This document shows, piece after piece, positions 2,356 to 60,854 of a stretch of 64,000 nucleotides of DNA. Below the pieces are notes generated by a model. That model was not told where the DNA came from and made no database searches. It saw only the letters and a list, made by a program, of their open reading frames with translations. The stretch is from Diprion similis (taxonomy: Eukaryota; Arthropoda; Insecta; Hymenoptera; Diprionidae): positions 6,000,501 to 6,064,500 of the forward strand of contig NC_060107.1 in NCBI RefSeq assembly GCF_021155765.1, read 5' to 3'. Each line of letters opens with the position of its first letter. Within the stretch, counting starts at the first letter, position 1. The position numbers and the translations under genes are program-made.

Positions 2356-4840
2356 AAAAAATGTCAATATATGGAATTGAATTTCAGTTCAATTTCAGTG
2401 ACATTGCCCAAAATCACGCGCGTCCTTCTACATCGGTAATGATTTTTATTTCTTTAATTCCTTTGCTTTTCCTCGACGTGCCAGACTTTTTCCTGGCAAG
2501 TATATATAACTATATAATCAATGGCAGATTCTTCCCTGAGATATCTTATCCTTAACCAATTTATACACACTACCATTGATATCTCTTATAGAATTCCGCG
2601 ACGCATCCTACAGATTGCTGTCAAGGAAAATATTCCTCGTTTATTCGTACCCATGATGCGATGTTTATTTTTTATTCGTATTCCACACTGTCAGTACTCC
2701 AGACACCACAACGTAGCGTCATTCTTCTTGTTGTGCAGGAGCATCGACGTCATTTGCAAAGTGGGAATGTTGCCGTGTTATACAAATGCAGACACAACAC
2801 GCACTCCTTGGTTATCCTTGGCACAAAACAGGTTATTGTGCGGGATTCTTTCTCTACCGGAATCGATTAATCTTGTATTCTTTCCGGGACTCTGCGGTGA
2901 GACGTCATCAACGTCGTTGGATTAACCCTTTAGTCATGGTGGTAAGTATTCTTACCACCTGTTTTATATCCATTTTTTGTATATCTAGAAAATTTTCTTT
3001 ACAAATCTGAAATCAGATTTTAGCAATTGAGTACGACGATTCGTTGGATTTTGAACCTTCAAATCACAAAATGAATTACGAATTCTGTTCAAGTGTTATA
3101 TCAGCTTTTGTTGATACAACAATTCATTCCGTTTCGAACTAAGCCCTGAACTTCGTCAGAGAATTCAGGGCAACTCTGCAGCTGTGTATAAATTACAATC
3201 ACTTCAGAGGAATGCCGAATTATTTCGTAGGATTGCACGGTAGCGAAGGTTTCCTGACGGTGCAATAGCCTATAATTATGGCGGAACGCATTCAAGGACT
3301 ACTCCTCGATTTCTCGGTAACAAGCATTTATTATACTTAAGGCGTTTCCGGAAGCTAATAAAATGTTCATCTGTAGCAGTTGGATGGTTATGTGATGTGT
3401 GTATACGATATAAGAATGCACAAGTTTGATTTATCGTAGTTGCACTACGTCTCATATGACGTTCGGTGTAAACAGTGCAACGTGACGCGTTCAAGTAGAA
3501 CAGGTGTGTCTAAGTCTACAAAAAATCTGCACTGTGAATGACGATGTTATGTTATCTCAGGCACGCGAATAGTTTATTTTTAATCCTTAAAACGCGCGAG
3601 AAAACAAAAATCTGCAGTGCTTTGATTAATTTAGCAGTCACCTGCACCGGAAAAAGTCTTTCTCCTATCAGCGACTTGCAAAGTTTTGGGAATGTGAGAA
3701 ATAAAGTTACGCAATCTGTGTTCAGATAATAAACTTCAAATGTCGTTAAGTACGAATTACACGTCAAGCGTATTATTTTTGGTAGAATGTTTGATGTCGC
3801 AAAATACTGTGAAGGAAATATTTCATAAAAGTCCTTTTTTTTTTGTAGGATTTCAAAAATATTTTTAAAACATTGACACGATCTCGCTGGGATTTTAAAA
3901 TTCAACATTGGACTTGCTGCGGCTGATAATTTGAGTATATTAATAACTGCTGCTTATAAAAGCTGCTAAAAAAACTAGTTTTTGCGACGATGTTGAATTG
4001 ACCTTTAAGAATTACATAAATATATGAGAGTTTAATTTAGAAACCAGTTATTCCCAGGTCAGCACAAAACGAGCAATGAAGAGAGAAGAATTGATGAAGA
4101 TGATAAAAATAAACCCCACTGGGAGTTGTTGAAATTAAAATTGACAAGGTAAGGAACAGCGCAAATACCAGATTAATCTGGTATAACGATAACACGTAGG
4201 CTTCAGCGCGGTTCACACTTGTTGAAAATGAAATGAAGGGAAATGATTCTTCCTCATTAGTCAGCTGCGACGGTGTTCGAGGCGGCTTGCTGCAGCCTTG
4301 GTAAGATTTCACTTTACTTAAGTGCACCGCTTAACTGCACACAACCAGGCTACGGAATCATGTTACTATTGTTTCCTCCTCCCTCCTATCTCCTAAAGAA
4401 CAAGAGCAAATTCCTGCGTGAATGTATAGTATTTCGTCAGTACATGCATGCGGCTCTCAAAATTTGCTTATCCTTGCATTGTAGAGAACAGAAAAGTATG
4501 ATATGAATCTTTCCACACCTTGATCATAGAGTACGGTTAAAAAGTTGTTTAATTTTAACGCATTGATAAGCACTGATAAGTATGTACATTCAAAAAGTAT
4601 TTCATAAAAGCAAGAACTTGCTTCTAAACATCTTCATTCGATTACGAATTTGGTTCTATACGTTCATTCTTTACGTCTACGGAATCCTGCATTACCGATA
4701 TGACCGTTGATAAAGACGGAAACTGTCGATAACTGTGATTAATTGTCGTATGGTATGACAAGGAACATACCAATTGCTTGTCGGCAACGTAGGAACCATT
4801 TTTTTCAAATCGTAGATTCAACAGCTTCGTAAAATGTTCC

Positions 4841-4869
4841 TAACCTCACTTTACCTAAGCTAACCTCAC
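4841..4869. promoter_or_regulatory. Paired TAACCTCAC motif upstream of LYR/MTRFR
   Basis: Two direct copies of TAACCTCAC start at 4841 and 4861, one 20-bp period apart, about 120-150 bp before the first start codon. A related ACCTAAGC lies between them. The position fits a proximal promoter or 5' leader. The same octamer, in either orientation, recurs near the 5' ends of other genes in the window (20317, 42373). The binding factor is unknown to me. Confidence 0.35.
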
Positions 4870-4989
4870 ACGATGAAGTTTTAAAAAGAATATCCCATGT
4901 ACTCGTGGTTAAATTACTGCAAACGATAATTTGAAACCACTTGTGGTTAGCAATAAGCTAAAAGTAAACTTCTGAACGAAATCGTCAGA

Positions 4990-5267
4990 ATGAGAGTAAA
5001 AGTTCTGCGATTGTATAAAGACTTGCTCAGGTACGGACAAAACTTGCAATACACCGATCAAGAATTGTTCAAAAGAAAAATAAAGGGAAATTTTCGAAGA
5101 AGCAAAGATTTGTCGGATCAAAAAGATATCGAATTTCAACTACAGGTAACTGTTGGGCATGGTTTTTGCATTTTTAAATTCACATAACTTATGTACGTTC
5201 GATATTACAGCCCTTTTTTTCATTTCAGAAAGGATTGCAGTTGCTGAAAGACAAGAGAGTGATTTAA
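4990..5267 (+). CDS. LYR-motif microprotein, MIEF1-uORF (L0R8F8/AltMiD51)-like
   Basis: Two coding exons (4990-5145 and 5229-5267) join in phase 0 across an 83-bp GT-AG intron to give a 64-residue protein. It has the LYR-family signature: a basic first helix with LYK near residues 8-10, then RYGQNLQYTD (about 14-23), a conserved Phe in NFRRS, and a C-terminal KGLQLLKDK segment. This matches in order and length the roughly 70-residue product of the human MIEF1 upstream ORF. That protein sits with MALSU1 and mitochondrial acyl carrier protein on late-assembly mitochondrial large ribosomal subunits. The start has A at -3. The stop is 26 nt before the MTRFR start on the same strand with no ATG between, so one mRNA probably carries both. 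The mitochondrial matrix location is inferred from the family. Confidence 0.85.
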
Positions 5268-5293
5268 ACGTTATTGAATTCTTTTGCACAACC

Positions 5294-5842
5294 ATGTTTC
5301 TGAAAACTATGAGATATTTGCAAGTCTTGCAGAGTTTACCCAATAGTCATTTAAAATTATCACTTTTAGGAAGAAACTTTTGCAAAAATCAAACTCCAGA
5401 AAGATGTAGAACAGAAATAGGATTGCTTCAAGTTTCCAGAAACAAGTCACAGTTATGCTTGATAACTCGCTCAATGTCTATAAAAAAGCATTTAGATTAC
5501 ACCAACGTTCCAAAGATAGACGAAGCTGACATCGAAATACAATTTGTGAGAGGTAGCGGCCCGGGGGGTCAGGCAACCAATAAAACAAACAACGCGGTGC
5601 TAATGAAGCACAAACCGACTGGGCTAGTCGTAAAGTGTCACCAGTCTAGAAGTGTTTGGGAGAACAAGAAAACCGCTTTCGAATTGTTGACCATGAAGTT
5701 GGATACCTTGATGAATGGGAAAAACTCGATAGAGGAACAAATAAAAGCCATACAAGCCAAGAAATCCACAGCGCAAGCCAGGAAGAAAAGGAAGCTCGAT
5801 GAATTAAAAGCAGCTTTCAAAGAACGCGAAGGTCTCGATTAG
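5294..5842 (+). CDS. MTRFR: Mitochondrial translation release factor in rescue (C12orf65 homologue)
   Basis: Single-exon frame of 182 residues. The ATG at 5294 is preceded by ACC, a good initiation context, and is the first Met after the LYR stop. An earlier in-frame Met at 5153 lies inside the upstream intron and is rejected. The N-terminal ~60 residues are basic and rich in Leu and Ser, as expected of a matrix targeting sequence. Residues ~66-110 contain the class I release-factor GGQ core: RGSGPGGQATNKTNN with GGQ at 91-93, then KPTGLVVKCHQSRS. The C-terminus is a Lys/Arg-rich helix (QARKKRKLDELKAAF) typical of C12orf65/ICT1 proteins. There is no codon-recognition domain, as in the family. 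In other animals it releases peptidyl-tRNA from stalled mitoribosomes with MTRES1. Human length is 166, so this one is complete. Confidence 0.95.
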   Translation: MFLKTMRYLQVLQSLPNSHLKLSLLGRNFCKNQTPERCRTEIGLLQVSRNKSQLCLITRSMSIKKHLDYTNVPKIDEADIEIQFVRGSGPGGQATNKTNNAVLMKHKPTGLVVKCHQSRSVWENKKTAFELLTMKLDTLMNGKNSIEEQIKAIQAKKSTAQARKKRKLDELKAAFKEREGLD

Positions 5843-5882
5843 TAACAGCAACTTGTTAAGCAAATTTAACGTTCATATGTTG

Positions 5883-5888
5883 AATAAA
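5883..5888 (+). promoter_or_regulatory. Polyadenylation signal AATAAA
   Basis: A canonical AATAAA lies 41 nt after the MTRFR stop, in a suitable place to end the LYR/MTRFR transcript. Cleavage itself cannot be seen from sequence. Confidence 0.5.
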
Positions 5889-7807
5889 AACAATGGGTAG
5901 AAAAATTAGTCATAATAATATGTTTAGCAAAGTGCAAATTCAACATCAATATTGTAGCTCACTTCCTAGCTTGCTCCACATCACGAATCGTGACTTTTTG
6001 TGAATTTCATAGCAATTCGAGATACTATACATGTACGGAATGAAATAATAAACGTTATGGAAAAAGAAATAATGTGTCGTATGTAATTCACTTACGAGTT
6101 TCCAACTAACTTAGACTGGTGATTATGCATTTTGAACTAATGCTGTTGTGAGCAGTGTAGAACCTGAAATAAAAAAAAAAAAAAAACTGAGTATCGAAAA
6201 GAGTAAAAACAAATTTCATATGCTTTACTTACCATGTGTACATGTATATCGCTATTGTCTATGTAGATATTGAGGTATTTAAAACACAACCAAAACGATA
6301 TGAAATACAAGAATAATTAAAAAAAACTTGCACTCATTTTTAGTTAGAAAGTAGTGACGAAGTAGCATAACAGTTACAAAAAATAATACATTATTGACAA
6401 GAGTAATTTCAATAATTCACTATAAAATTAGCATAATCATACTAAAGCTGAAACTTTGATTAGTTTTCAGGGCAGCAATAAGAGATAAATTTGAAATTTC
6501 TCCAAATTTCTAGCTTTTATTGCAGAGTTGATTATTCGGCTTTAAAAGATTATTTCGTAATTTTTGACATAAGAGGAAATACCATCAACTTTTTAAATTT
6601 TACAGTTAGAACGCAGACGTTAAGTGATATTATTTATTTGCAAATATTCTGAGAATTTTGAAGGAACAAAAAAACCACATTCACTTTTGCAGTGAGTTTA
6701 GTGGAAAGCTTATGCTATGATGGCGCAATGCTTATTCGATTACGAATAAAAATTAATAAGTTTCATTTCAATTTCTTTATTCGTATGGCACGGAAGTAGC
6801 AATTTTATGAACGCATTGTTAGATATGCGTTTCCTGGCCTATAACTGGATGAAATTTGACTGATACTAAGCCAAAGAAAATTCTATTTTAAAAAAAATCA
6901 CAAGATTATACCTTCTTTACGTCTAGTACTAAGTTTAAAGACTAATGGAAGCCCGTTGTGAGTGAGATTTACGTAAGAGTAAAAAAGAAAAAGAATATAT
7001 GTAAGAGATAGAAGGACGTTATAATTACAAGACAGTCTTCTGTATGGAAAATTCGTAAGTTTTAATAATCGTAACCCTTTTGGAATTCACGTAAGAATTA
7101 CAACATTTTTTCAAATTTGAAATGAACAAGATTTTTTTTTTGCAGGGGATACTTTCTCATCAGAGTTTAAAATAGATAATATTACAATGTTATTGGTATG
7201 CAGAATAACGGAAAATGGTTATACTATTATAAAGCTATGCATGGAGTCTTGTGTGCTCTGAAGAAATATTTCGCTAGTTATATCCATAAATGATTATGAC
7301 TATATTTCAGTATGTATGTATGCACGTGTGTATCAGGTTGAATTATTATACCTTTGTAACGTTAAATCAGAACTTAAAAACGAAGACTCAGTATTTCAGT
7401 AAAAATGGCAGACTTTTTTTAAATTATTCAAAAATACGCTTGTTTAGAGGGTACGTAGTAAACTATAAAAAGTATCTTACTACAAAACCAATGATTTTCT
7501 TAGAGTACACCAAGACGACATCTAAAGAATGTACAACACAGTGGCTCTTGGCAGCTAAGCCACCAAAAAACGACGGTAATCATTATAATAATATTTCAAT
7601 AATACGTTAATATTAATCATAATAATAATTATACATAATTATAATATTACTAAATATCTACTTCATTAACTGTGTTAAATACTACACTACATACACAAGT
7701 ACCTTCTTTTATACACGCAATGCACCGCTCGCATTAAATATTCAAACTTCGATAGCGTTCTCAAAATTAATATATTTAATACAAGGTGCAAAATTTATCA
7801 AAGTTTT
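5889..7807. other. Non-coding spacer and probable chiffon 3' UTR
   Basis: AT-rich sequence between two convergent genes. The longest open frame (7290-7610, +) encodes a low-complexity 106-residue peptide without known motifs. The part nearest 7807 is presumably the chiffon 3' UTR. I see no RNA gene or mobile-element structure. Confidence 0.5.
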
Positions 7808-10800
7808 TCAACTGTCCTTTATCCACCGACAAAACTTTCCTCTAGTATTTCTATACCATTTTGGTGGCTGAATATTAGATCTAGGTGAAGCAGAACTTCT
7901 TAACCTTCGGTTGCTCGCAACTGTTACCGATAAAACACCATTGTCCATATCAACCTGATCATCGATTTTTGTCATCCTAACAACGGGTTGGAATTCTATA
8001 CTTGATCGCCGATTCTCCAACTCAACCGAAGACACAACAGGGCTAACTCTTTGCGATACCGAAAATGTGAATTCAATGTCCGAATCTCGTGCTTCAGACG
8101 ATAACGTCTGTCTCCGTTGACGTTTTCTGGAATTCTGCTGTTTTCTAGACGTTATATTCAGATTAGTGTCTTTTTTACATGAATTCTCATCCTCGAAATC
8201 AGAATGGTGGATCTCCGAAGAGCTCGTTTCCTCTCGTTGCCTTTTTGTAGATACAGAATTTGAGTTTGACTGTTTTTGGAGCACAGCAATTGACGTAGTT
8301 CCTTTAAAGTCGAGAATTTCCGAACTTTCTTCTCTGTGTTTCATCTCAGAACTCAGCGTGTCGCTGGACATATCTTTACTCAGCCTTTGCCTTTTTAACA
8401 AAGTATTGTTGATTGGCGGCGTTCTCGATCCTATCACCAAATTAGTATCTTTTCGACAAGAACTGCTGAGCCGGTTTTCCTCCTCAATGTCGGAATTACA
8501 TGTTACTGGATGCACATCTTCGTTTTGATGTCGTTTGGAAACATTGTTACAGCTGGATTGTTTTCTCGACGCTCCAACAGGATGACAATCTTTCCTGTAC
8601 ACCTCATCGTGAACTTCGTTCTCAACGCTAGCCTCTTGAAATTCAGATGTAGATGTACTTCTACGTCGAACTTTGCGCGACATGGAGTTTGAGTTAGATT
8701 GTCTCTTGGAGATGTTAGTTTGTCCTGTAGTACACTTGTGGGAATTTTCATGACTTTCACAATCTTTATCAGATAACTCTCTGTTTGATTTTGAAACACT
8801 CGTATCATTTTTATCCGAATTTCGTTCACTTTTCATTAAATTATCAAAGTTCCCGAAATTTTTTGGCAAACATTTCCCCACATCCTCTCTACTCCTATGC
8901 CTCTTAGACGAGTTCTCATCTTTCAAGTAACTGTAAGATATGCTCGAAGTGCAAGTATCTGTACTTTTTCTACCACCCTGTATTCGATCTATCAAATCGT
9001 TGGCAGTTTCATTCTCAGACACAACTTCAGGATGGATTCGACAATCACCATTAGATGCTGCTATTCTTGGATCTGAATCGCGATGTAATCTATTCGAGTC
9101 AGCATCCTCGTTCAATGTTTCTGACAACCTGTTATCCGTCTTATGATCAGGTACATTTTCCGACTCACAATCCACATCAATCGATTGTTTAGCTTGTAAT
9201 TTCTTCCTCATTTTAATACCAGGCCAACCAGTTCTATTTTTTCTACGTTTTCTCCTTTTCATAGGTGATTCAATGTTTGTTGTTTCCCCACATTCTGAAC
9301 TGGCACAAGACGAATTGTCCAAGCAGTTAACGTCTTGGCAATTGTCAAGTAACTCTAATAGATTTGGTGGGGGACCTTTTGGTATTTGAGGGTGCACCAT
9401 ATTCAATTCAATTGAAGTGCTCAATTCAGTATCGAAGGAGTCTTCCAGACCGATGAAATTCTTTCCACAAAGCATGTCATCTATGTTTCTTGCAATTTCT
9501 TTAAGGTCCTCATCAATTTCAGACTTCACATCAGATTTCGCCTCTGATTTAGGGGTGTTTGTTCGCGATCTGTTCGAATGTATTTCTTCCTCAATAATAC
9601 TCAAACTCGGTGGTTGAAATTGCTCTCTTTTCCTAATAATGGTTGACATAATGGCCAAAGTCGACGCATGACATCTTGGACTTTTCCTAGGTAATCTACT
9701 CACACTGCCGCCGCCTCGGCCACGACCCCTCCTCCGATTATTCTCAGACTTGTTGCAACCTCTCAACAGTGTTTCATGAAAATTTTCAATCTCATAAGGT
9801 AATAAAAACGGTTTCTGGCTATCACCTTCACTGAAACAATGCCAGAATTCAGCCCCTTCGTCTTGACGTTGGTAAGTTTGATACCACGGCTCGGATTTTG
9901 GTACAGCTTCAAACGAAAATTGAAGCTTCTCGACTTCCGGTGAAGGCTTGGATGAAAAAGTAGGTTCGGTAACTTCCACTGTTTTCGTATTCGCTGTATC
10001 TAATTTATTATTCTCCTCGCAATCTGGCAATGTGTCAGATTCTTTCACACCTGTTATTGGTGCTTGATACCTCAACCTGCTGCCGGGTGTTTGAAATTTG
10101 TAGTAATCTTCATTGTCTTTTATCAAGGCTTCTGCCTGCGTACGTCGTCTTTTTCTTGCTCGTCCGAGAGACACCGAGTCTTGAGAATCTTCTTCAATTG
10201 TATCCTCACAAACTGAAGAACTAGAGTTCACTGTAGAATTTAAAGCAAAGGAATTTGACGTCAAGTCCCGTTCGCTTTCTGTATCGTTCGGCAAAGTGCT
10301 ACTTTGCTGTTCGCTTTCACTGCAGTCACTAGATTCATCGCGTTTTGGTTCACCAAACATAAAAGACTCAGCTTCATCACTAAGCAAGGAAAGTTCTGAC
10401 TTTCTGACACGTTTGAAACGAACAACAACAGGTTTTTCACTCGAAGGAGCGTCATCTTTCTTCAAATCTTCAGCAGCCTCCTTCACCGGTATTACCCCTT
10501 GCGAATTTGGAATTGTACTGGATCTCAATTTATTTCCTAGAACTTCTACTTTGTAATACGCCCGATTATCTTCAATCAATCGTTCCTCAACAGAGAGTCG
10601 ATTACGGCCTCTGGACATTCGACCTCCTCTTCTACTAGGCTTGACAACCCTCGTATTTTCATCCTTAATATCTTTCTCCACCAAACTCGGAGCTTTGGAA
10701 TCCTTAACATCATTTTGTACTTCATTCGGATTATCATTCGAGCTGCCGTTGAGTCTGTTAAGGTCATTAGGACACTTTTCAGACGTTATCGAATTCTTGT

Positions 10801-13800
10801 AGGATTTTGAACACCGGTGAATACTGTCCGTTGTCTCTTTAGAATAAATATTTTTATTAGCTTTCAATTGTTTATCTTCGATCTTGGCATCTTGTCCATT
10901 AACACGAACCTCTGGCTTGGTCGAATCAACAACCCCACCTTCTTCAGGAATCCTGCTATCCTCTGTGTTTGTGCATCTTTTCCTCCTATCGGGTACCTCA
11001 CAATCCGTCAAACAGTTCAACTCATAAACCTGATTCAGTTCGCACTTTATTTCCTTAAAATTTAAATTGTGTTCGTTGTCTGTTTGTCCACCGTTTATAT
11101 TCTGGCTGTCCTGTTTTACCTTACTGTCAACATCATTACCATTATCAATAGAACCTGTTTTGTTATACTCCTGACTTTTATTTACCTTAAAAGCATCTTC
11201 GTCGACACATTTATCATCCGGATCATCTTCCTCGATCCAAATGGTACCTTTCGCACGTTTTTTTATAGTGAAACCCTCAAACTTATCATAAAACTTGTCA
11301 CTCTTATCCACCTCATGCCAGGGGCTACCTTTCGACCGTAACAAATGACCACTTTCATGCTTAGCTCGAGTCCTCAGATTGTGGGATGGATTTAATTTTA
11401 AATCAAGACTTCTTCGCGCACCATTGCATTGCACCATATCGATATTGCTCGTGTTGTAATTATCCAATTCAGGTTTCGATGTCTTGTCTACCTTTTCTTC
11501 CGGTAACACGACACTCCGAAGGCTGCGGCTGACGTTTGGAAACAAGCTGCAATCCTTGCTGTAGTGGAAATTAACAAAATATAAACTTTCTTTCATCCTC
11601 CATAGCAGTATAGATGAGGGCTATCATGAGCAACTTAAAGATTGCAAAAATATACCGTTGTTGTCATTGAGAATTGAGTTCTTTTTATTGCAGCGGTATT
11701 CTTCGGAAATCTGTAATGGCTGTTCCAATACTTGATTGTGAAGACAGTGCTCCAATACTGTGATTGAGATTCAAAATTGAACAAGATAATAATGCGAGTG
11801 TTAGGTTTTTCATACAAAATACCACAAAGTCGACCTTGGAGCTTCTATATTTGCAAATAAAAATAACTTTAAAAAACTTGTATGCATCTTAGCGTAATTA
11901 ACGCTTTAAACGTCATGGTTAAGTGTCAACAACACTGATTTGTCAATATTTAGTATTCAGAAAAAACACTCACCCAATGTCTTTCGACCTGTTGAATTTG
12001 AGAAAGGCTTCGACACTGGCTCCTGCATTAATCAAGGTATCCAAAGACAAGAAATTGTCATCATTTCGAACAAAGTTTAGGTGCTGATCACTGCGCACAT
12101 GCTTCTTTAAATCTCTATAGTCGATTCGACATATTTCACAGTAGCCAGCAACCAATTGTTCCGTTCTCCGAGTCCGTGTTGCCCCACCACGAGGCCTACG
12201 AGTCATGTCCTTATCCTGCGTCATGAAAAATTGAAAATATAAGATACCCATATAATAGACAAAACGATCTTAATAAACAATCAACAGGTGTGGTTAGCGT
12301 AACACTAAAGTATGTTAGATTATCCCTTCTTTATAGAAATGGGTGTAAACAGCGTTTGATTTCATACACTGAATACTTTTTAGGTATCATAAATCTGATT
12401 AGAAAGAATGGAAATCAACAGACTAAACGATCTGGCCCTTGTAGCTCCGTTCTGGTGAGTGAAAAACTGCTTTATACAGGGTCATGATGGAATAACACTC
12501 CATAATTTGTATTGCAGGCATGAAATACTTAGTTACACCTTTTCCCTAGACGTTCTTTTTGCAAACGACACAATTCTATTTTTCTTTAACAATGAAGTCA
12601 ATTTCTAATTAATCTTGCACTCACTTTATCTTGCTGGTTGAGAATTGAGACCTTTTTGTTCTCCTTAATATCTTTGCTGCTTACTGTAATCTCTTTCTTT
12701 TCACGCTGTTTAGTGTCAAACGGACAAGTGCCAGGTTCACCTTCAAAATTCAGCTGTGGCCAAGCGGATAATTCCAAAAATATAGGTCTAGTGTCTCTGC
12801 AATAAAGATGGAATATTAATTAGGAGGATATTTAAAAAATCTAAAATTTTATATTTTAGTTAAGTGAGATTCATTTAAAATCAATTACAAATTGGTATTT
12901 CAACAGTTATTCGTTGTTGCAATAAAGACAAATTCTAGTCGAGAAATAATGCCAATCATTGTCCTTACTTTGTGAAAAAAATTATTACCTTTGGAAGGAT
13001 TCAAACTTTATATAAGGCGCCTTCAATTGCTTGACTTTTGTATCCTTGCTTACACTGGGTTGTTGAATCTGTTTCAAGTTGTGTGTGCCTTTAAGAGATG
13101 CATAGATCTTGTCCAACCAGATCTGCAATTTACTTGTCGGCCAGATTGGGATTCCCCAGTTCTGAGCGTTCTTCAACGGGTCCACGGAATACTGTTGTGG
13201 TTGCGTCAAGGCACGCTCCAACATTGCATCCGCTCGAGATTTCTGTTGAAGATGAATTAAACACCTCTGCTATTATAAAGGTAGACTTAACATCATCTCA
13301 TTCACCCAATGACATTTCGCTTGAGTAATGGATCCATATGTTACGAAATAACCATTAGATTCTGAATGGTACAATTGTTTCCATGACTGAGACGAAATAT
13401 CTAATTGCTATGCGTCTTGTAAAGTTCAACTTGTCACATACGAATAGTACTCCTCACGCTGAAGTAATACAGAGTGACCAATACAACAGTAAGTAAATAC
13501 GTAATAAAATATCATATGTAACCAGACATCTATAAATACAGAAAACTATGCATTGGCAACACGCTGCAAATGGTATTAATACAATTCATCGATTAAAATG
13601 TTTCAAGCGGCATAATTCCAGCGGCGCAATTTTCTAACCCGTTAAGTGACATGAATACAATTCAGAGTCATGAAGACTGTTATGATTTAATAATTGAAAC
13701 CACAAGTAATCAGAGTGATGCACAAGGTACATTATTTGGTAAAATTTTTAAAGTCGTGTCGATGCTCAGAGACAAATGTATGAATAATTTGTAGAACAAA

Positions 13801-20044: not shown

Positions 20045-21973
20045 ATGCTGTCGCAAATTTATTCGAGGAAAATTATCCAACACGTGGCAGCCGGTGCAAG
20101 AAACTTTTACAGGAACTCATACGATTCAAATCAAGATGCAACGGAAGTTGAAATCCCCGTACCGTGGGGCAAGATAGCTGGTGAGAGGATCAGTTTAAAA
20201 AAAATAAAATCAACTTTCATTTCTACCGTTACAATCATCTATCTTGCGACAACATTAATTCGAATATGGTCAATGTCCGTCTCTATTATCCGCATTTCAG
20301 TTGATGTTCACTGATCTAACCTCAAAAACCCATTTCATCATGGTTATGTTCAAGAAAACGCATTCGTATCGTAACTGTCGTCTGTACAAATAATGACACT
20401 TGACCGTGACCGAATGGATGGAGCTTAAAAATTTGGATAGATACATCATTTATTTGGACTGTGAGTAGTCAAGTCTGCATAACTAGAAACAACGTCTTGA
20501 CACTCATACAGGGTCGTGGCAGTCCAAAAGTGTGATTTGAGCAGGCTCGTCGGAGCAACGTTTGTCAGTTGTTTACAATTACAAATGATCCTAGTCAGCA
20601 TTATTTGAACAAAATACCTTTTTTTGCTTGTGATCTGCAATCACATTCACTTTACGAACTTTCATATCAGCACAAATATACACTGTGCTTCTGTGTACTG
20701 AAGTATCGAGATTGACACAGGACTGTTATGGTTCATTCAATTGCGTACTATCCTGGTGCTTCCGACGGCCCTGTGTGTAAAATTATTTGCTTTCTTAGCC
20801 CATTTGCATTCTCGTTCATAAATGAATACATTTTTCATCCAAATTCAAAAGCAGGATCTCATTAAAAATATTAGAATATTCCTTTATTTCTTTTTTCTTT
20901 GAACTATCGTAATCATCGATGATAGATTCCAAAAAAAAAAAACCAAACGTGCAATTAAGAATTACAATAATTGTATGGGTATGCCAGACGTTGAACATTA
21001 AATTTTGTTTCAAACTTGTGTAATATCGGAATAGATTGCAAATGTTGTATGAGTCAGAGACGAACTGCTGATAACGGTGGTTTATCTTCACTTGTATACT
21101 TGATTGAAAGAAATCTTAAATGGTTCTGCAGGTAAATGGTGGGGGCCAAAAGACCGGCAGCCAATTTTGGCGTTTCACGGATGGCAGGATAATGCAGCAA
21201 CGTTCGATACGTTGATCCCGTTCCTACCCAAGGGAACTTCTGTACTTGCAATGGATATGCCCGGCCATGGATATTCATCCTGGTTACCAGCTGGAATACC
21301 ATATTCATTGATGAACACTGTCCTACTAGTTAAAAGGATAGTCAAATATTACGATTGGAGGAAAGTGAAATTCATGGGTCATTCGATGGGCAGCATGGTC
21401 GTGTTTTTATACGCATCGTATTTCCCTCAAGAAATGGACTTTGGCATCGGTATCGACCTCGTGAAGCCACCCTCTATAGATGTCAATAAATATTCCAAAA
21501 TAATCGCCGAGCATGCAGAAAATATCCTTAGAATAGAGGCTAGGACAACGGATCCACCCACTTACGGTGATGAAGAAATTATGCACAAATGGATAAAGGG
21601 AACACAATATTCTTTGGACGAGGCTGCTTGCAGGCTGCTCATGAAACGAGGAGTTAAAGAAGTTGGAAAGGGCGAATTTATATTCAGTAAAGATCCAAGG
21701 CTGATCACATATACTTCTTTTGACTCAGGCTACACCCATGACCACATCTTAAAGCTAGCCGAACAAATCACTTGTCCATACAGGCTGATTAAAGCTTCGG
21801 ATTCACCTTTTTATCAGGATAAGAACCTGGTTCTCGAAACTGTTGAGAAAATGAGTATAAATAGTTCAGACTTTGCCTATACCGTAGTGCCTGGTAAACA
21901 CCATTTACATTTAACACATCCTGAAAGAGTGACCGAAATACTCAATCCATTTTTAGAAAAGCACAATAAATAG
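20045..21973 (+). CDS. kraken: Kraken / serine hydrolase-like alpha/beta hydrolase
   Basis: Two exons (20045-20180 and 21132-21973) join in phase across a 951-bp GT-AG intron to give 325 residues, the usual length of kraken/SERHL proteins (about 310-330). The start ATG opens a basic, possibly mitochondrial or peroxisomal, N-terminus followed by EIPVPWGKIAGKWWG. Alpha/beta-hydrolase motifs are clear: the oxyanion-hole region FHGWQDNAATFDTLIPFLP (about 60-78), DMPGHGYSSW (87-96), and the nucleophile elbow GHSMGS with Ser at residue 130. The terminal histidine lies in PGKHHLHLTHPERV (His 302 or 303). The third (acidic) catalytic residue I did not fix. The natural substrate is not established for the family. 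It stands alone between chiffon (divergent) and PFKFB (same strand). Confidence 0.93.
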
Positions 21974-23689: not shown

Positions 23690-30846
<7,157 letters not shown>

Positions 30847-35300: not shown

Positions 35301-38300
35301 ATCTCGTACAAGCACAGACATGCATTTAAACGCTGCCGTTACAAGATCAAAGTTGTCCCCTTTGCTTAATCCAGCAGCAGCATATTTGTGCAGTATATTG
35401 AACATCGATGAACAAATTTCTGTAACATAAGTCTTTACCGATGGAAGATCTGTTTTTAGGATCCAATTCAGGCATTGAAGGGCAAGCGTAGTCAGCTGAA
35501 AAAAAATTTGACTTGTTTTTATCAACATGTGAAATATTGTTCTACTAAGGACTATCTGATTGAATTTTGATAGAAGAAATACATTACTATTCCAAGTTGT
35601 AAGGCTATTAAATTTTTATATCAAATTTTATCATAACGTAAGAGCAATGTATCTTATTACTCAAGTCTTCGGAAGGTGCAACATGAAATTCTTAGAGTTT
35701 AAAAATGAAGATTGATTATTTACCTTGACATGCTGAGACTTTAAACAATCGCTTAATATGGATACGACAGGGTCCAAATAGGATTTGAGTTCTGGTGCTG
35801 ATATGCGATCTCGCTTCAACAAAATATGGTACAGTCGTAGGCCAAACTCCACCATAATGTGAGCATTGGTGTTGCTAGAAGTTTTCGCCTGGGCTTTAAC
35901 ACCCATTCTATTCTTTGGTTCAGGTGCGACGATCAAGCAGTCAGGCTTTTGGCGTGCCTTTATTTCAGCTTCTTTTTCAGTTATTTGTTTAGGTTTAGAT
36001 GCAAGCAAGAGATCAGGTATACTTTCAGAAATAACGCCGTAGAGAAATGTTAGCATTTTATTTATTTCAATGAAAGTATTATCAGCCAGACCCAAAACTA
36101 CCTGTCTCAAGCACTCAACTACCTTACGGATAATTTTATACGAGTGTGTTTTGAGTAATGCATTCTTCAATGGCATAATCAGATCGAGTAAGCAAGATTC
36201 AGTTATAAATTGAGCTAATATATGAAAGATGTCAAAACTTTTAGTTGATTTTGCTTCGGAAACATTCTTTACAATACCAGCGATCTCTTTTTCTTCTCCA
36301 GTCAGACCGAACAGATCAACCTTGCATACCTGTAATGCAACAATTGAATATAAGTTTCAATAATGACCCAGTACCAGAGCGAAAATAGCAAGTAAGTCTC
36401 AGATAATTTCCTTACCGATAAAATGCTGTGCAAATTCTCATTAATATGAAGAGGCTTGTAGTATGGTTTCAAAGAAACAAGTACAGCATGAATGGTATAC
36501 ACAAGAACGTGCACTTGAAAACCCTTTGTCAATATATTGTTCATCTCTTTGAGTAAATGACACAGATATTCAGGCCCCAAAGTTATCATTATTTTTTGCA
36601 TAGTTTCACGTGTGATGCGTCTCACAGAATCCAAACGAGACTTAAGAAATGTGCATAACTTCATCAGGATGCTGAAAGAAAACAATCGATATAAAGAAAA
36701 CTGTCTGAATATGAGCATAATTGAACAAATCTGATAATTATTTATTATTTACCCAGGTAAATTTTCCTCTAGTACACCTGCCGGTAACTTTTGAAGTAGC
36801 TTAACAACAGCAAGTGCAATTGGCACTCGCAAAATCTCTTCTTCCTCCCTTTCGAAGCCCGTCTTTCTTCTGTTCACCTTGTGACTGTTCTCGTGTTGCG
36901 TACGTGCCATGATTGACCGGTTCAACTGAGGCAACAAGCCTTTCGATATACTGAATACTAGTCTTCTGGCAGCAAATTGTGAAAGAATCAACTCTCTTTG
37001 CATTGCTGGTATATTTATCTGTGAACTATTGCCACTTTTCGGCTCCAATTCATCAGGATTTATCGTATCATCAGCCAATGCTTCATCCAACTTCTCATCC
37101 ATATCTGGAATACTATCAAGCACACTATCCTCGTCATTACTAGGTAATGGATCTGGCTGTTTCACCTCCTCTGTATTCGTTATAGCGATTACAGAGCTTG
37201 CAGGCTCCTTGTACTTTGAAAGATTGTAATGGAACGCATCTAGTATAGCAACAACAATTCTTATAGTTTGTTTTTGAAATTCAACTGAAGACCTCAATTT
37301 ATCCAGATAGTATTTGAGAACAACTTCGTACTGATGCCAGGGCAACAGTCTACACACAGTGCCAACTGTTTCGATCGCAGCATCAACGATACTATTTTTA
37401 TTTACAAAAGATTCGGAGCACAAGTAAGAAGACGCGAGCGGTAGTATGAATTGCGTCAATGTTTTTGGATTTGGAGATCTATTCCAGGTTTTTGCAACCG
37501 AGCAAAATTTAAGCAGTGCTCGTGCTTTTCTGTGTAGTTGTAAGTGTTGCAAATTTTCAAAAACGTCCACTTCTGGATCAGCCTTATTACTCAGTGGATG
37601 AAGATCTCGGAGCACTGGATGAACATCGGAACATTCCATTGCTAATTGGCCCAGAAGAGCAATAGACTGGTTGCGTACAATTTCGTTTTTATCCCGAATA
37701 CCCATTCGTACAATTGACAAAATGGTTTCATCAATCAGATAATGCTTCTCTAAGTGCCTGTCCTTGTACTTTCTGACCAATTTCGGAGCAATTGTTTTTA
37801 AGCACTGTCCTGACAAATCTCTAAGCGCAAGATCTTTCTCAGTTTTCAAAAAGAAAAAGCAATTGTATATTATTGCTGCGCCAAACTCAAGTGTGAGAGC
37901 ATTTTCCTCCAGTAACGTGTTTACTTCCTTGAACGCTTCTAGCCTTTTATCAAAGTCTGGTTGATCGATCCATTTACTATCCCAGGCATTCAAATCAACA
38001 AGCAGTTTGCAGTTGCGTATCATAAGATCACGGTGTCGTTCTGATGACCCTTCCGATATAATATTGTACAATCGCATCAGGGATTTTCTAGCTGATACAG
38101 CTGTAATCGCACCGGTAAGTGGAACGATAAGTCGTAAGTGCTTCTCTGGGTGTTCAACAATTTTCATAAGATTAAAGATGGTGGAAACCAGCTGAATTAC
38201 AATCTCTTCGCTTGCACCAGTTGTGGCTTTTTTAACAAGAATTGGCAAAAGCAATGTCAACAGTGTATCGCATGTTTCAGAGTCTTCAACGAATTCGGAT

Positions 38301-41300
38301 ACACGCGATAATACGACCAGTTCGATTCTGTTTACTCCCTTGTTGCTCTTGTTCAACTTCTTCTTTATATACTCCAATATATTTGGTACGTGAGGCAGTA
38401 GCAGAGCTGATCCGTAATTGATATTATCTGTGGGACAACGGGTGCTCCCTTGGTTGATTTCCAGAATATTATTGGTCAATATTATTGGGAAAAACTTTTT
38501 GTCAACGTCCATTTGATTGACATTATTATCAATTATGCCATAATCCTGCAGCGTCAGCATTTTCTCGATCATTTCCATAATCGCGTTTATCACAGAACCG
38601 TGCGTTTTAGGCCCCAACAATAATTGTATAACATATGGCAGAGGTGTTAGTGCCAAATTATTTTCGAAATGTTTTGCGAACAAGGGGTAGTACCTTGGAT
38701 TCTGGCTCCAAGCTATGAAGAGTTTTAAGAGTGCCGTTGGACTGTGGATACCTTCAATTGGTAACTTTTCGAGCCACGGAAAAACAGCAACAGCAAACAG
38801 CGCATCTATTTCGTATTCAGTCCATTCGTAGCTTTCATAATGAGAAAAAAACCTAGATAGTATGTTCAGACAACTGCTACGCAGGTTTCGTATTGAAGAC
38901 ATGTATCCGGGATGAACATCGTCCGAACGTTGTGATATTCCAGTTACTTGTGCTAGTATACAAATTAGTATCCCCAACAAACGAGGTAACAATTTACTTG
39001 ACATTTTACCACCAAACTGTTCGATTACAATTGCCAATAAATTCACGGAGCTTTGTAGTCGTTTCGGTGGAATAATGTTGGATAAATCCAGATTATTAAC
39101 CACATCTCTCACCATTTCGTTCAAATTGAATTCTTCTTCAGAAGCTATTGGTACATATTTATGAAAAAGCTTAAAGGCCATGCTGATGAATATCATCATC
39201 TCGTCTTCTTGAGTTCCAGCCAGGAATCGTAGTACGATAGTTCTTCTAACAAGACCACCGGCCTTTCCCCCGGTTCTCATTCCTGTCCTCATCACCATTT
39301 TAGCATAAATTATTCTCATAAGAATCGGGAGCAATCCTTCTCTGTGATCGTCTTGTATCATGTTACTTTCTTTATCAATATTAAACAAAGCTAACTCATT
39401 CTTCAAACTTTTTTCATCTATTAGATTGTATAGGTGTTCCTTGTACGGCACTAGGTACTTGTGTTTGTAAGTGAACAGACAGTTGAGAGCAGATTTTTGA
39501 ACTTCACTGTTTTTGGAGGCAAGTAGTTCTAAATAAATTTTATACATATCAGCTTCTCGGTACAAAGTTCTTGGATTTTTTACTTTTGAAAATATTTCCA
39601 TCTGCGCCAAGAGAAGCTTGATTTTATGTTTACCGTCAAACGATATTTTATTCGTTGCTAAATCATTCTTAGTGGCTTTCTCATGATCTATGTCATCATC
39701 GTCTTCGTTTTCCTGGACAATTTGATTTGCCAATTCATTGTCACCCTCATGTTTCTTAATACTCCAAGATTTAGCATCTTCGCTGTTAGATTTGAAAAAG
39801 TTACTCTCAACGAAATCGATGAATATTCCAGTTAAATCTCTGTTTTTCATTTCACAAAAGTCAGGAAATAATGCCATACACTTCCAAAGAAGTAAACTGT
39901 AGTTATTGTAATCAGGTTTGTCGTCATTACCAAACACTTGAAACAAGAGCATGGAAGTAATGTCACAATCAAATGTAGGCAAGCTGGTAGTTTTCGATTC
40001 GTCAGGTATTTTGACACTTGTCAATTTTGATATAAATATTGGCCAAAATGCATCGCATTGCTTGTGGGCGTACGAAGCAATTAATTTCATTATTGGATCC
40101 CATAGCAATGAAAAATTTACATACAAATTTCCAAACAGACAATATATAGGAAATTTCAAATACTTTGAATCAAACTTACTTAGCAGAATACTTTCAAACG
40201 CAAGACCTTGCAGGGGTAGCAATTTATCTCTATAGGAATGGACTGTTGACGGCTCAGCCTCAGCTAAATATGGTAGTGCTAAGAAGTTTTTATCACCTTG
40301 ATCATTCGTTGCAAAAATATCTTTTACATTACTGAATAAAGAATAAATGTGGGCTATCACGAGTCTGTCCTTATGGTACGGAGATCCTAATAATGGTGCC
40401 AAACTTTCATTTAGTGAATTGAACAGATCTACATTTATCAGGTCATTTTCGACTTCTGAATTGACAATGTGCGACAAGCACAAATCTACAGCACAGAGTA
40501 TGCTTCTCATTGTCGAATACTTATCTATCAGTTCAGATAAATTTATGTCATGATTGATAATATAGTTGTAAAATTCGTTTGGCTTTAAAATGTGTGCAAC
40601 AGATTCAATCGCCAAGAGGAAAGTGAAACTTAACAAGTCGAGTTTCAGGTCTGAATTACCATCGACGAATGTTTTCAATTTTCTATAAATATTTTTTGTA
40701 GCTTCTAACAATGTTTCCTCACATATCTTTGGCACAGGGCTCAAGTGAGGTAATATTATCAACATTCGCAGTGAATCTTCTGATGGTGCATTATTATTGA
40801 GTCCTGCTAATTTATTTTGCATATAATTCAAACTTTCACCTGGAATATTACGGATATTCAGATTGTACCTGGTCCATTCTTTCAATTTGGTACCGTTAAG
40901 ACAGAGAGGTGATTTGACAACTATTATTTTAGAAAAAAGTCGCAAAATATTGCTGTCGAAGCCAGTTTGAAAACTGTAGGTCATGAAATGTGGTAATACC
41001 AATGTTTCAAATGACGAATAAGAAATTAGTTGCTCCACTACTGAAAGCAAAATCTCGGCATCTGATATGGCCAATATTTTCAGTACAAGTTTATTCGAAT
41101 TTTCCTGCGTAAGTTTTACGTTTTGAGCCAAAAGAACTGATCCAGAAAGTTTAGCCAAGGCCTTCGTGATTACTTTGTCACCACCTACAGTTGTTTCTTT
41201 ATTTTCAAAGAAATCCAGTGCTTTGACCAGCTGGTTTATCAATAGATTGGGATGAACAAGCATCCTTCCATCTTTATGATTCACTACTTCTAGCAATAAA

Positions 41301-42476
41301 GTATAGAGCAGGAATAGTGCATTCTCTTTTTCCGTTTTCAATTCATCCGTATGTTCACCTAATTTTTCATAATTTTCTAAAAACAGATCTGCCAATCGAA
41401 GAGAAACATTCCAAAAATTTTCGCTTTTTTGTGGATGTATGGAGTTGACTAAGCATTGAACAACTTGTTGAAGAATGCCGTATAAAATTTGCTTATTTAT
41501 TGACTCATTTTCTAGGCTGCCAATGTAAAGCGTCAACATTTGTTCAGCGCAGGAATGAAACTGGCCAGTTGTTCCTTGGATGACTTGAAATAATAATTTT
41601 CCGCACCCTGATACTCCATCTGGTCTTTTTTCTAAAGCATTGATTAACAGTTTTAAAAATGCATTCTTATCTTTGACTTTCCTTACTACAAATGCAAAAC
41701 TTTCGGCAGCAAAATTATTGATGTAAGTTGGTTTTGACTCAGCCAGTAATGGTAACAACAAATCAAACACCGCATCAACATTCTTGATCAAGTACCGCCA
41801 CAAGAATTTAAACAGGTAAGCCAATGCTGTAAAAGTATATTCCAGCTGCTCAGCATCGTTTGTATGTAGCAAATCTATTATCACTGTCAAGAATTGAGGA
41901 AAGTATTCATAGAATTCTTTCTGAAGATCTCGTGCAGCAGCGATTACTAATCTATAAACATTAAAAGGGATTATCAATATATTGAAAATGGATTGAGTGA
42001 GAAGAGCCTCCTTTCTGGAGCTAATTTAACGGAGCAGTAAGCATGTATGATACTCACTCAAGTATCGGCTGTAGACAAAGAGTATCCTTTAATCTGAGAT
42101 ATCTCAAAAGAGCATCGATAACGTGTTCTTTGCTGTTCAACAGTTGTGGCAGCGTGACAATGCCTCGAAGTTCTTTTTTCAAATTTGTATAATTCTCTGT
42201 GAGGTTAAGAACGCTCCATTTATGGAGACATTGGTAAAAATGTGTTTCCACCTCGTCACTTTCTGCTTCATTGCGATGGGATACCCGATGAAATACATCA
42301 ACGTCGATGTCAGCTATACGCTCAGAGAAGGGCTTAAACTACGGAAGAGAACGAAGCGTGCAAGTTATAAATTGAGGTTAGATTAGGTTAGGTGAGTTCG
42401 CCTGTGGAGCTAAATGTTTACTTCGACTGACCTTAAAGGTGTTTGATTCCTTATGACGGGTCGGTTTATTCTTCAT
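32369..42476 (-). CDS. UTP20: Small-subunit processome component UTP20 (DRIM)
   Basis: Eleven exons, right to left: 42476-42432, 42338-42058, 41951-36753, 36671-36416, 36329-35724, 35495-34932, 34834-34652, 34460-34121, 33458-33028, 32908-32639 and 32518-32369. They total 2774 residues against 2785 in human, and every junction keeps phase. The N-terminus MKNKPTRHKESNTFK followed by PFSERIADIDVDVFHR matches the conserved UTP20 start. LARDLQ-type and FAAESFAFVVRKVKDKNA blocks lie in the DRIM domain. The rest is HEAT-like helical repeats (SRLDSVRRITRETMQKIM; LTTLALQCLNWIL; AFTLLRAILSRKLIVPE). The acidic insert NEDDDDIDHEKATKND and the Lys/Arg-rich tail (RKIARQQKKKEAKKRKM) are typical. It is a nucleolar scaffold of the 90S pre-ribosome, needed for 18S rRNA cleavage. 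Exon 3 alone is 5.2 kb. Confidence 0.97.
42373..42394. promoter_or_regulatory. TGAGGTTA / TTAGGTTAGG motif cluster in UTP20 intron 1
   Basis: Within the first intron, just after the start-codon exon, TGAGGTTAG is followed by ATTAGGTTAGG. The octamer TGAGGTTA is the reverse complement of the TAACCTCA pair upstream of LYR/MTRFR. The TTAGG units also equal the common insect telomere repeat, but only two or three degenerate units are present. Confidence 0.3.

Positions 42477-51220: not shown

Positions 51221-60854
<9,634 letters not shown>

Follow-up and report, generated by a model that had tools for sequence, protein, structure and literature searches.

In the human MIEF1 mRNA, a first frame encoding the LYR microprotein AltMIEF1 (L0R8F8) precedes the frame of MIEF1, a nuclear-encoded mitochondrial protein that acts as a fission factor. 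AltMIEF1 links MALSU1 to mitochondrial ACP, and its loss reduces MALSU1, the large-subunit proteins and mitochondrial translation (PMC7312649). LYR proteins are also found on assembly intermediates of the mitoribosomal large subunit of trypanosomes, where the chains are named L0R8F8 (PDB 6yxy, 7am2) or Complex1-LYR-like (7aoi). In Drosophila, Hayden and Bosco (2008) reported that CG30100, listed as 'Translation release factor', has a conserved uORF of 70 amino acids, which is the first uORF of its transcript and has a Ka/Ks of 0.08 (PMC2276209). Two adjacent frames per mRNA are common in flies, 159 dicistronic pairs being recorded in FlyBase (PMC4528330).

Here, we report on a locus of the pine sawfly Diprion similis, in a stretch of 64,000 nucleotides that was analysed as a whole (the window). 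This locus is probably a conserved dicistronic gene, in which one spliced mRNA would carry the frame of a LYR microprotein first and that of MTRFR (C12orf65) second, the latter being reached by leaky scanning; the doses of the two products would be linked, and the microprotein would bridge MALSU1 and ACP. As in the human mRNA, an orthologous LYR microprotein comes first and a mitochondrial protein encoded in the nucleus second, but MTRFR is unrelated to MIEF1. As in Drosophila CG30100, a short conserved frame lies 5' of a translation release factor, in another species. Two adjacent frames on one mRNA, as proposed for the Diprion pair, are also the mark of the FlyBase genes.

The preliminary description of this DNA was confirmed by direct reading as regards the order of the two frames: the spliced LYR frame of 64 codons ends at 5267, the MTRFR ATG follows on the same strand at 5294, and no ATG occurs in the 26 nt between them (Table 1). 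The spliced peptide is identical, at 64/64 residues, to an annotated Diprion similis protein. Going 5' from the LYR start, the closest ATG, at 4897, begins a frame of only 10 codons. The description had also mentioned a single poly(A) signal. This was correct for the near 3' flank, with its AATAAA at 5883, and incorrect for the wider region 4900-6250, in which AATAAA also occurs within the frames at 5079, 5579 and 5740 and further down at 6047 and 6168, and ATTAAA at 5803, inside the MTRFR frame. Since the spacer contains no poly(A) signal, any LYR mRNA that is not cut within the MTRFR frame carries both frames. The single spliced mRNA would start slightly 5' of 4990 and would be polyadenylated past 5883. 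No match above threshold was obtained in an Rfam search of 4000-7000, nor any tRNA in a search of the window (bacterial code setting).

Table 1. Features of the LYR/MTRFR locus and protein-family matches elsewhere in the window.
Feature	Position	Strand	Basis
LYR microprotein exon 1, codons 1-52	4990-5145	+	frame read, Pfam, PDB, fold; ATG at 4990
Phase-0 GT-AG intron, 83 nt (CAG/GTAACT ... TTTTTTTCATTTCAG/A)	5146-5228	+	read directly
LYR microprotein exon 2, codons 53-64 and stop TAA	5229-5267	+	read directly
Intercistronic spacer, 26 nt, without ATG or poly(A) signal	5268-5293	+	read directly
MTRFR (C12orf65 ortholog), 182 codons and stop, GGQ	5294-5842	+	Pfam, PDB; ATG at 5294
First AATAAA 3' of the MTRFR stop, which probably serves a shared mRNA as poly(A) signal	5883-5888	+	consensus match only
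Alpha/beta hydrolase match	21104-21973	+	Pfam
6-phosphofructo-2-kinase match	27149-27706	+	Pfam
UTP20 match	36749-42025	-	Pfam
MOR2-PAG1 cell-morphogenesis N-terminal family match	55027-55464	+	Pfam

The 64-residue peptide was assigned to the Complex1_LYR family by Pfam with an E-value of 3.5e-12, far above chance. When it was compared with the proteins of the PDB, the top four matches were all AltMIEF1 chains, two of them named MIEF1 uORF protein (2.8e-9 and 2.9e-9) and two from mouse, followed by LYRM4 at 0.09. A profile built on 24 sequences from outside the vertebrates (17 named insects and 7 further rows) gave 66.7 bits with AltMIEF1, 37.3 with LYRM4 and 31.2 with the best of the trypanosome chains; the latter are thus matched by the profile, but they are longer (91-126 amino acids) and score below LYRM4. 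In these 24 sequences L8, Y9, R14 and F35 are invariant, and the third residue of the motif is K in Diprion (LYK). The AlphaFold model of the peptide consists of three helices (pLDDT 89.4), and its top three fold matches in the PDB are AltMIEF1 chains from mitoribosome assembly intermediates (9hcd_v, 7o9k_v, 5ool_v), one of which reaches an E-value below 0.001. The fold match is not independent of the vertebrate rows, because these were included in the alignment from which the structure was modelled; the profile of 24 sequences is independent of them.

Conversely, human AltMIEF1 searched against the Diprion similis genome found this locus first, with an E-value of 8.7e-5, the next match being at 0.17. 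The LYR family search of the same genome gave eight stretches, four of them above the cut-off and the 4990-5267 locus the strongest, and the peptide itself matched this locus only. With its 64 amino acids, the LYR motif and the conserved downstream Phe, the peptide agrees with the AltMIEF1 type (about 64-70 amino acids). In place of MIEF1 it is followed by MTRFR, which is a matter of gene context and not a defining trait. The identification made from the DNA letters as the counterpart of AltMIEF1/L0R8F8 was thus upheld by the top PDB match in both sequence and fold and by the reciprocal best match with the human protein: the peptide is an ortholog of AltMIEF1, beyond mere family likeness. By analogy with mammals, the Diprion microprotein would bridge MALSU1 and mitochondrial ACP.

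MTRFR acts on the large subunit of the mitochondrial ribosome in rescue, where together with MTRES1 it frees stalled chains, and in human it is a disease gene. For the 182-residue product of the second frame, RF-1 was the sole Pfam family above the cut-off (1.8e-23). C12orf65 was its best match in the PDB with an E-value of 1.5e-27, far above chance, compared with 4.4e-13 for the nearest other release factor, in agreement with the first identification of this frame as MTRFR. As is typical of this class, the protein has an RF-1 domain with the GGQ motif (GSGPGGQATNKTNN) and has no codon-recognition domain. One further weak relative was found in the Diprion similis genome (C2:21856326-21856517, 39% identity over 64 residues), presumably an ordinary mitochondrial release factor. 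In two other insects the motif departs from GGQ: the Orussus abietinus protein P0202 has GGS in its place (GSGPGGSNVNK), and Timema P0135 contains two RF-like stretches, one with GGQ and one with GGS. These represent either an altered catalytic motif or sequence errors.

A conserved linkage of the two frames in insects had been put forward as a check on the dicistronic reading, and it was supported in two ways, by fused models and by matches on contigs of equal length. First, a LYR stretch was found at the N-terminus in 5 of the best 120 of 282 MTRFR relatives, namely in models from the ants Trachymyrmex and Ooceraea, the wasps Microctonus and Vespula and the cockroach Diploptera. Both domains were detected by Pfam in four of them and RF-1 alone in Microctonus. 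Since the junctions differ among the five, we read these models as neighbouring frames run together by gene prediction; even so, they indicate at the sequence level that LYR lies close upstream of MTRFR and on the same strand.

Taken at face value, the five annotated fusions would point to alternative splicing that joins the LYR donor at 5145 to the frame of MTRFR, yielding a LYR-MTRFR fusion protein, and seven AG sites that keep the frame are indeed available between 5229 and 5600, for instance with an exon start at 5333. We consider a fusion highly improbable: the variation of the junctions over the five models is that expected of gene-prediction errors, the Vespula model is marked partial, and CG30100 was retained by Hayden and Bosco, who dropped the uORFs showing evidence of fusion (PMC2276209).

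In the ant and cockroach fused models P0143 and P0205, a single K separates LYR exon 1 from the start Met of MTRFR. The junctions read ...Q-K-M and ...E-K-M, as though an AG acceptor lay directly 5' of AARATG.

Second, LYR and MTRFR rows that come from contigs of equal length were paired. The LYR rows were the best 120 of 169, from which 75 judged to be vertebrate by name or sequence were left out and 45 used; the MTRFR rows were the best 120 of 282, of which 117 were used, 3 having no length. Nine exact pairs were obtained among the 45 x 117 combinations; when 200 other offsets were tried, each gave 0.23 pairs on average and never more than 3. The pairs from long contigs belong to Diprion similis, Neodiprion pinetum, Athalia rosae, Venturia canescens and Dufourea novaeangliae; four of them carry one species name on both sides and the fifth is the Diprion similis genome itself. 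For this part, 5 exact pairs compare with 0 within 1000 bases. For whole chromosomes, such a match denotes a shared chromosome and is no proof of adjacency; the 996-kb Dufourea scaffold is a tighter case. For the short contigs (25 x 73 rows), 4 pairs occurred at offset zero and at most 3 at another offset, and these matches, taken alone, are only suggestive. One equal-length pair, P0006/P0176 (1812 nt), is probably due to chance, its LYR N-terminus being unlike that of Hymenoptera and its MTRFR row ant-like.

The intron was compared in 50 sequences that matched the LYR pattern among 125 proteins examined. After residue 52, K or R is found in 31 of them and V in 17. A valine at this point is what readthrough into a GTN donor gives, and thus places an intron at the same position in those 17. 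Among them are the termite Coptotermes, the bee Dufourea and a row that does not differ from Tenebrio before this position. The position of the phase-0 intron, as judged from these proteins, is old and common to other insects. In addition, several partial AltMIEF1 rows of birds, annotated 'MIDUO' (P0068, P0075, P0078, P0084, P0105 and others), break off at ...KGxAFL, suggesting that an exon ends a few residues past the insect intron position. At the DNA level, scans with the LYR alignment yielded 18 pattern matches in genome contigs and 12 in viral contigs, of which not one was confirmed as a relative. The spacing and ATG content reported here are those of one species, Diprion similis. From the protein comparisons, the LYR/MTRFR pairing appears to be old. 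They show that in other species, too, a conserved peptide frame lies 5' of another conserved frame, as is published for flies (PMC2276209), and conservation at the protein level indirectly supports translation of both frames.

For CG30100, the most distant association of the uORF with the main ORF given by Hayden and Bosco is an Ixodes EST (PMC2276209, Table 1). In the main text of that paper the term 'LYR' is absent, and the uORF is named neither LYR nor AltMIEF1. CG42372 is counted among the fly LYR proteins (PMC9585818), and CG42372 and CG30100 are placed downstream of JhI-26 (PMC13401236). The uORF of 2008 is therefore probably CG42372 and the AltMIEF1 ortholog of the fly, and its association with CG30100 is evidence of one mRNA for the fly and the tick, not for Diprion. 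In Drosophila dunni, the Augustus models that follow JhI-26 match CG30100 and CG7747, with no CG42372 model between (PMC13401236); this counts against the dicistron, but the model is perhaps missing on account of the short frame. The pairing is thus partly known, in that it is contained in the 2008 list, the main text of which does not identify the tiny protein. The joining of AltMIEF1 to MTRFR was not found in the titles and abstract starts of the open-licence papers listed (supplements and FlyBase may hold more), and an AltMIEF1-type microprotein as the first cistron of MTRFR in arthropods looks new.

The same pair of frames would also be explained by two overlapping single-gene transcripts, the MTRFR promoter lying within the LYR gene and the LYR mRNA either ending in MTRFR or traversing it untranslated. 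The LYR product is a separate annotated protein in NCBI, which counts against a dicistron, and AATAAA occurs at 5579 and 5740 within the MTRFR frame. Short MTRFR models point the same way: that of Neodiprion (122 amino acids) begins at a residue matching Diprion Met61 and that of Venturia has 120 amino acids, so that either the models are clipped or the MTRFR start may be lower in these species. Single-gene transcripts, moreover, also exist for most of the fly dicistronic pairs (PMC4528330). However, the association of the uORF with the main ORF is published on fly transcripts and the Ixodes EST (PMC2276209), and the AATAAA at 5579 falls in the conserved N-K of TNKTNN and may reflect coding alone. 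We regard two overlapping single-gene transcripts as quite unlikely. As only 45/159 FlyBase pairs are exclusively dicistronic (PMC4528330, the main text of which does not mention CG30100), a mixed output is likely.

For the shared mRNA, leaky scanning is our first choice of route to MTRFR, on modest evidence. It is preferred because the first ATG that a ribosome reaches after passing that of LYR is the MTRFR start, and because the LYR core has few internal Met residues. Most ribosomes would start at the LYR ATG, and some would pass it and start at the next one; the doses of two factors of the mitoribosomal large subunit would thereby be tied to one mRNA. In the 221 nt that lead from the start codon of LYR to that of MTRFR, no further ATG occurs in any frame. 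The probability of such a stretch by chance is 0.36 under synonymous recoding and 0.22 under shuffled codon order, and in the window 418/9112 stretches of 220 nt on the forward strand and 291/9112 on the reverse strand are free of ATG. The lack of ATG in the Diprion sequence alone was therefore rejected as proof of leaky scanning (P 0.36).

Among related sequences, internal Met accounts for 4 of 2457 residues of the LYR core in 49 sequences (44 LYR rows and the 5 fusions; the insect row P0076 was not included), as compared with 219 of 14384 residues of the MTRFR core in 120 sequences, the LYR core being about ten times poorer. This depletion is a stronger argument than the lack of ATG in the single sequence, but the sequences are related. 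The 75 vertebrate-type LYR rows left out of this count are likewise poor in Met, and this rarity may instead come from the fold and from common descent. Position -3 is A at both starts; the LYR start is thus not weak, which counts against leaky scanning.

Reinitiation on the same mRNA is the main rival of leaky scanning. According to this scheme, translation of LYR, or its nascent peptide, represses MTRFR, and the frame is a uORF, relieved by stress, that also makes a useful protein. A 64-codon frame followed by a 26-nt spacer is unfavourable to reinitiation. The human counterpart is what gives the scheme its weight: the MIEF1 uORF represses the downstream frame, in part sequence-dependently (PMC7530721), and MIEF1, which fell below the strict cut-off of the authors, was noted as a candidate bicistronic mRNA resistant to eIF2 stress (PMC4383229). 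We judge this route to MTRFR fairly unlikely.

The pattern proposed in the preliminary description, a microprotein that is the first frame of two unrelated mitochondrial genes, was supported, with MTRFR in the present locus and MIEF1 in human. In a 2023 study of human microproteins, MIEF1-MP was assigned to those that arose in the course of vertebrate evolution (PMC10032668). The insect orthologs and the weaker matches to trypanosome L0R8F8 argue for a greater age of the microprotein and a change of host: contrary to that dating, it appears from these sequences to be older than its vertebrate MIEF1 host mRNA. Consequently, the age of a uORF peptide can be misjudged when it is taken from that of the gene downstream. 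It is possible, and we propose it only tentatively, that well before vertebrates the LYR frame stood before MTRFR or was a gene of its own, and that in vertebrates it switched host to MIEF1 and retained its role on the mitoribosome. It would then be a first cistron that has moved between mRNAs, the setting of a shared mRNA being kept twice, and large-subunit maturation would be tied to ribosome rescue in arthropods and to fission in vertebrates.

The human mitoribosome structure 7a5h contains both an AltMIEF1 chain and C12orf65, so that both proteins can occupy one particle. This is the nearest sign of a coupling, and only a hint of it. A shared arthropod mRNA fits co-dosing of the two proteins, with a putative coupling of anti-association and rescue. 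In the fly, the pairing is a test case for the control of the doses of two large-subunit factors by a single mRNA.

The ATG at 5159 lies in the 83-nt intron and, if the latter is retained, would open a frame of 227 codons in phase with MTRFR (5159-5842, forward strand). Intron retention would truncate the LYR frame. This ATG is probably there by chance; if it were used, the intron would act as a switch. The next coding frame downstream of the pair, arranged tail to tail with it, is an open frame of 1270 amino acids on the reverse strand (7808-11620), which is rich in S, K, R and E and Pfam-negative at 0.001.
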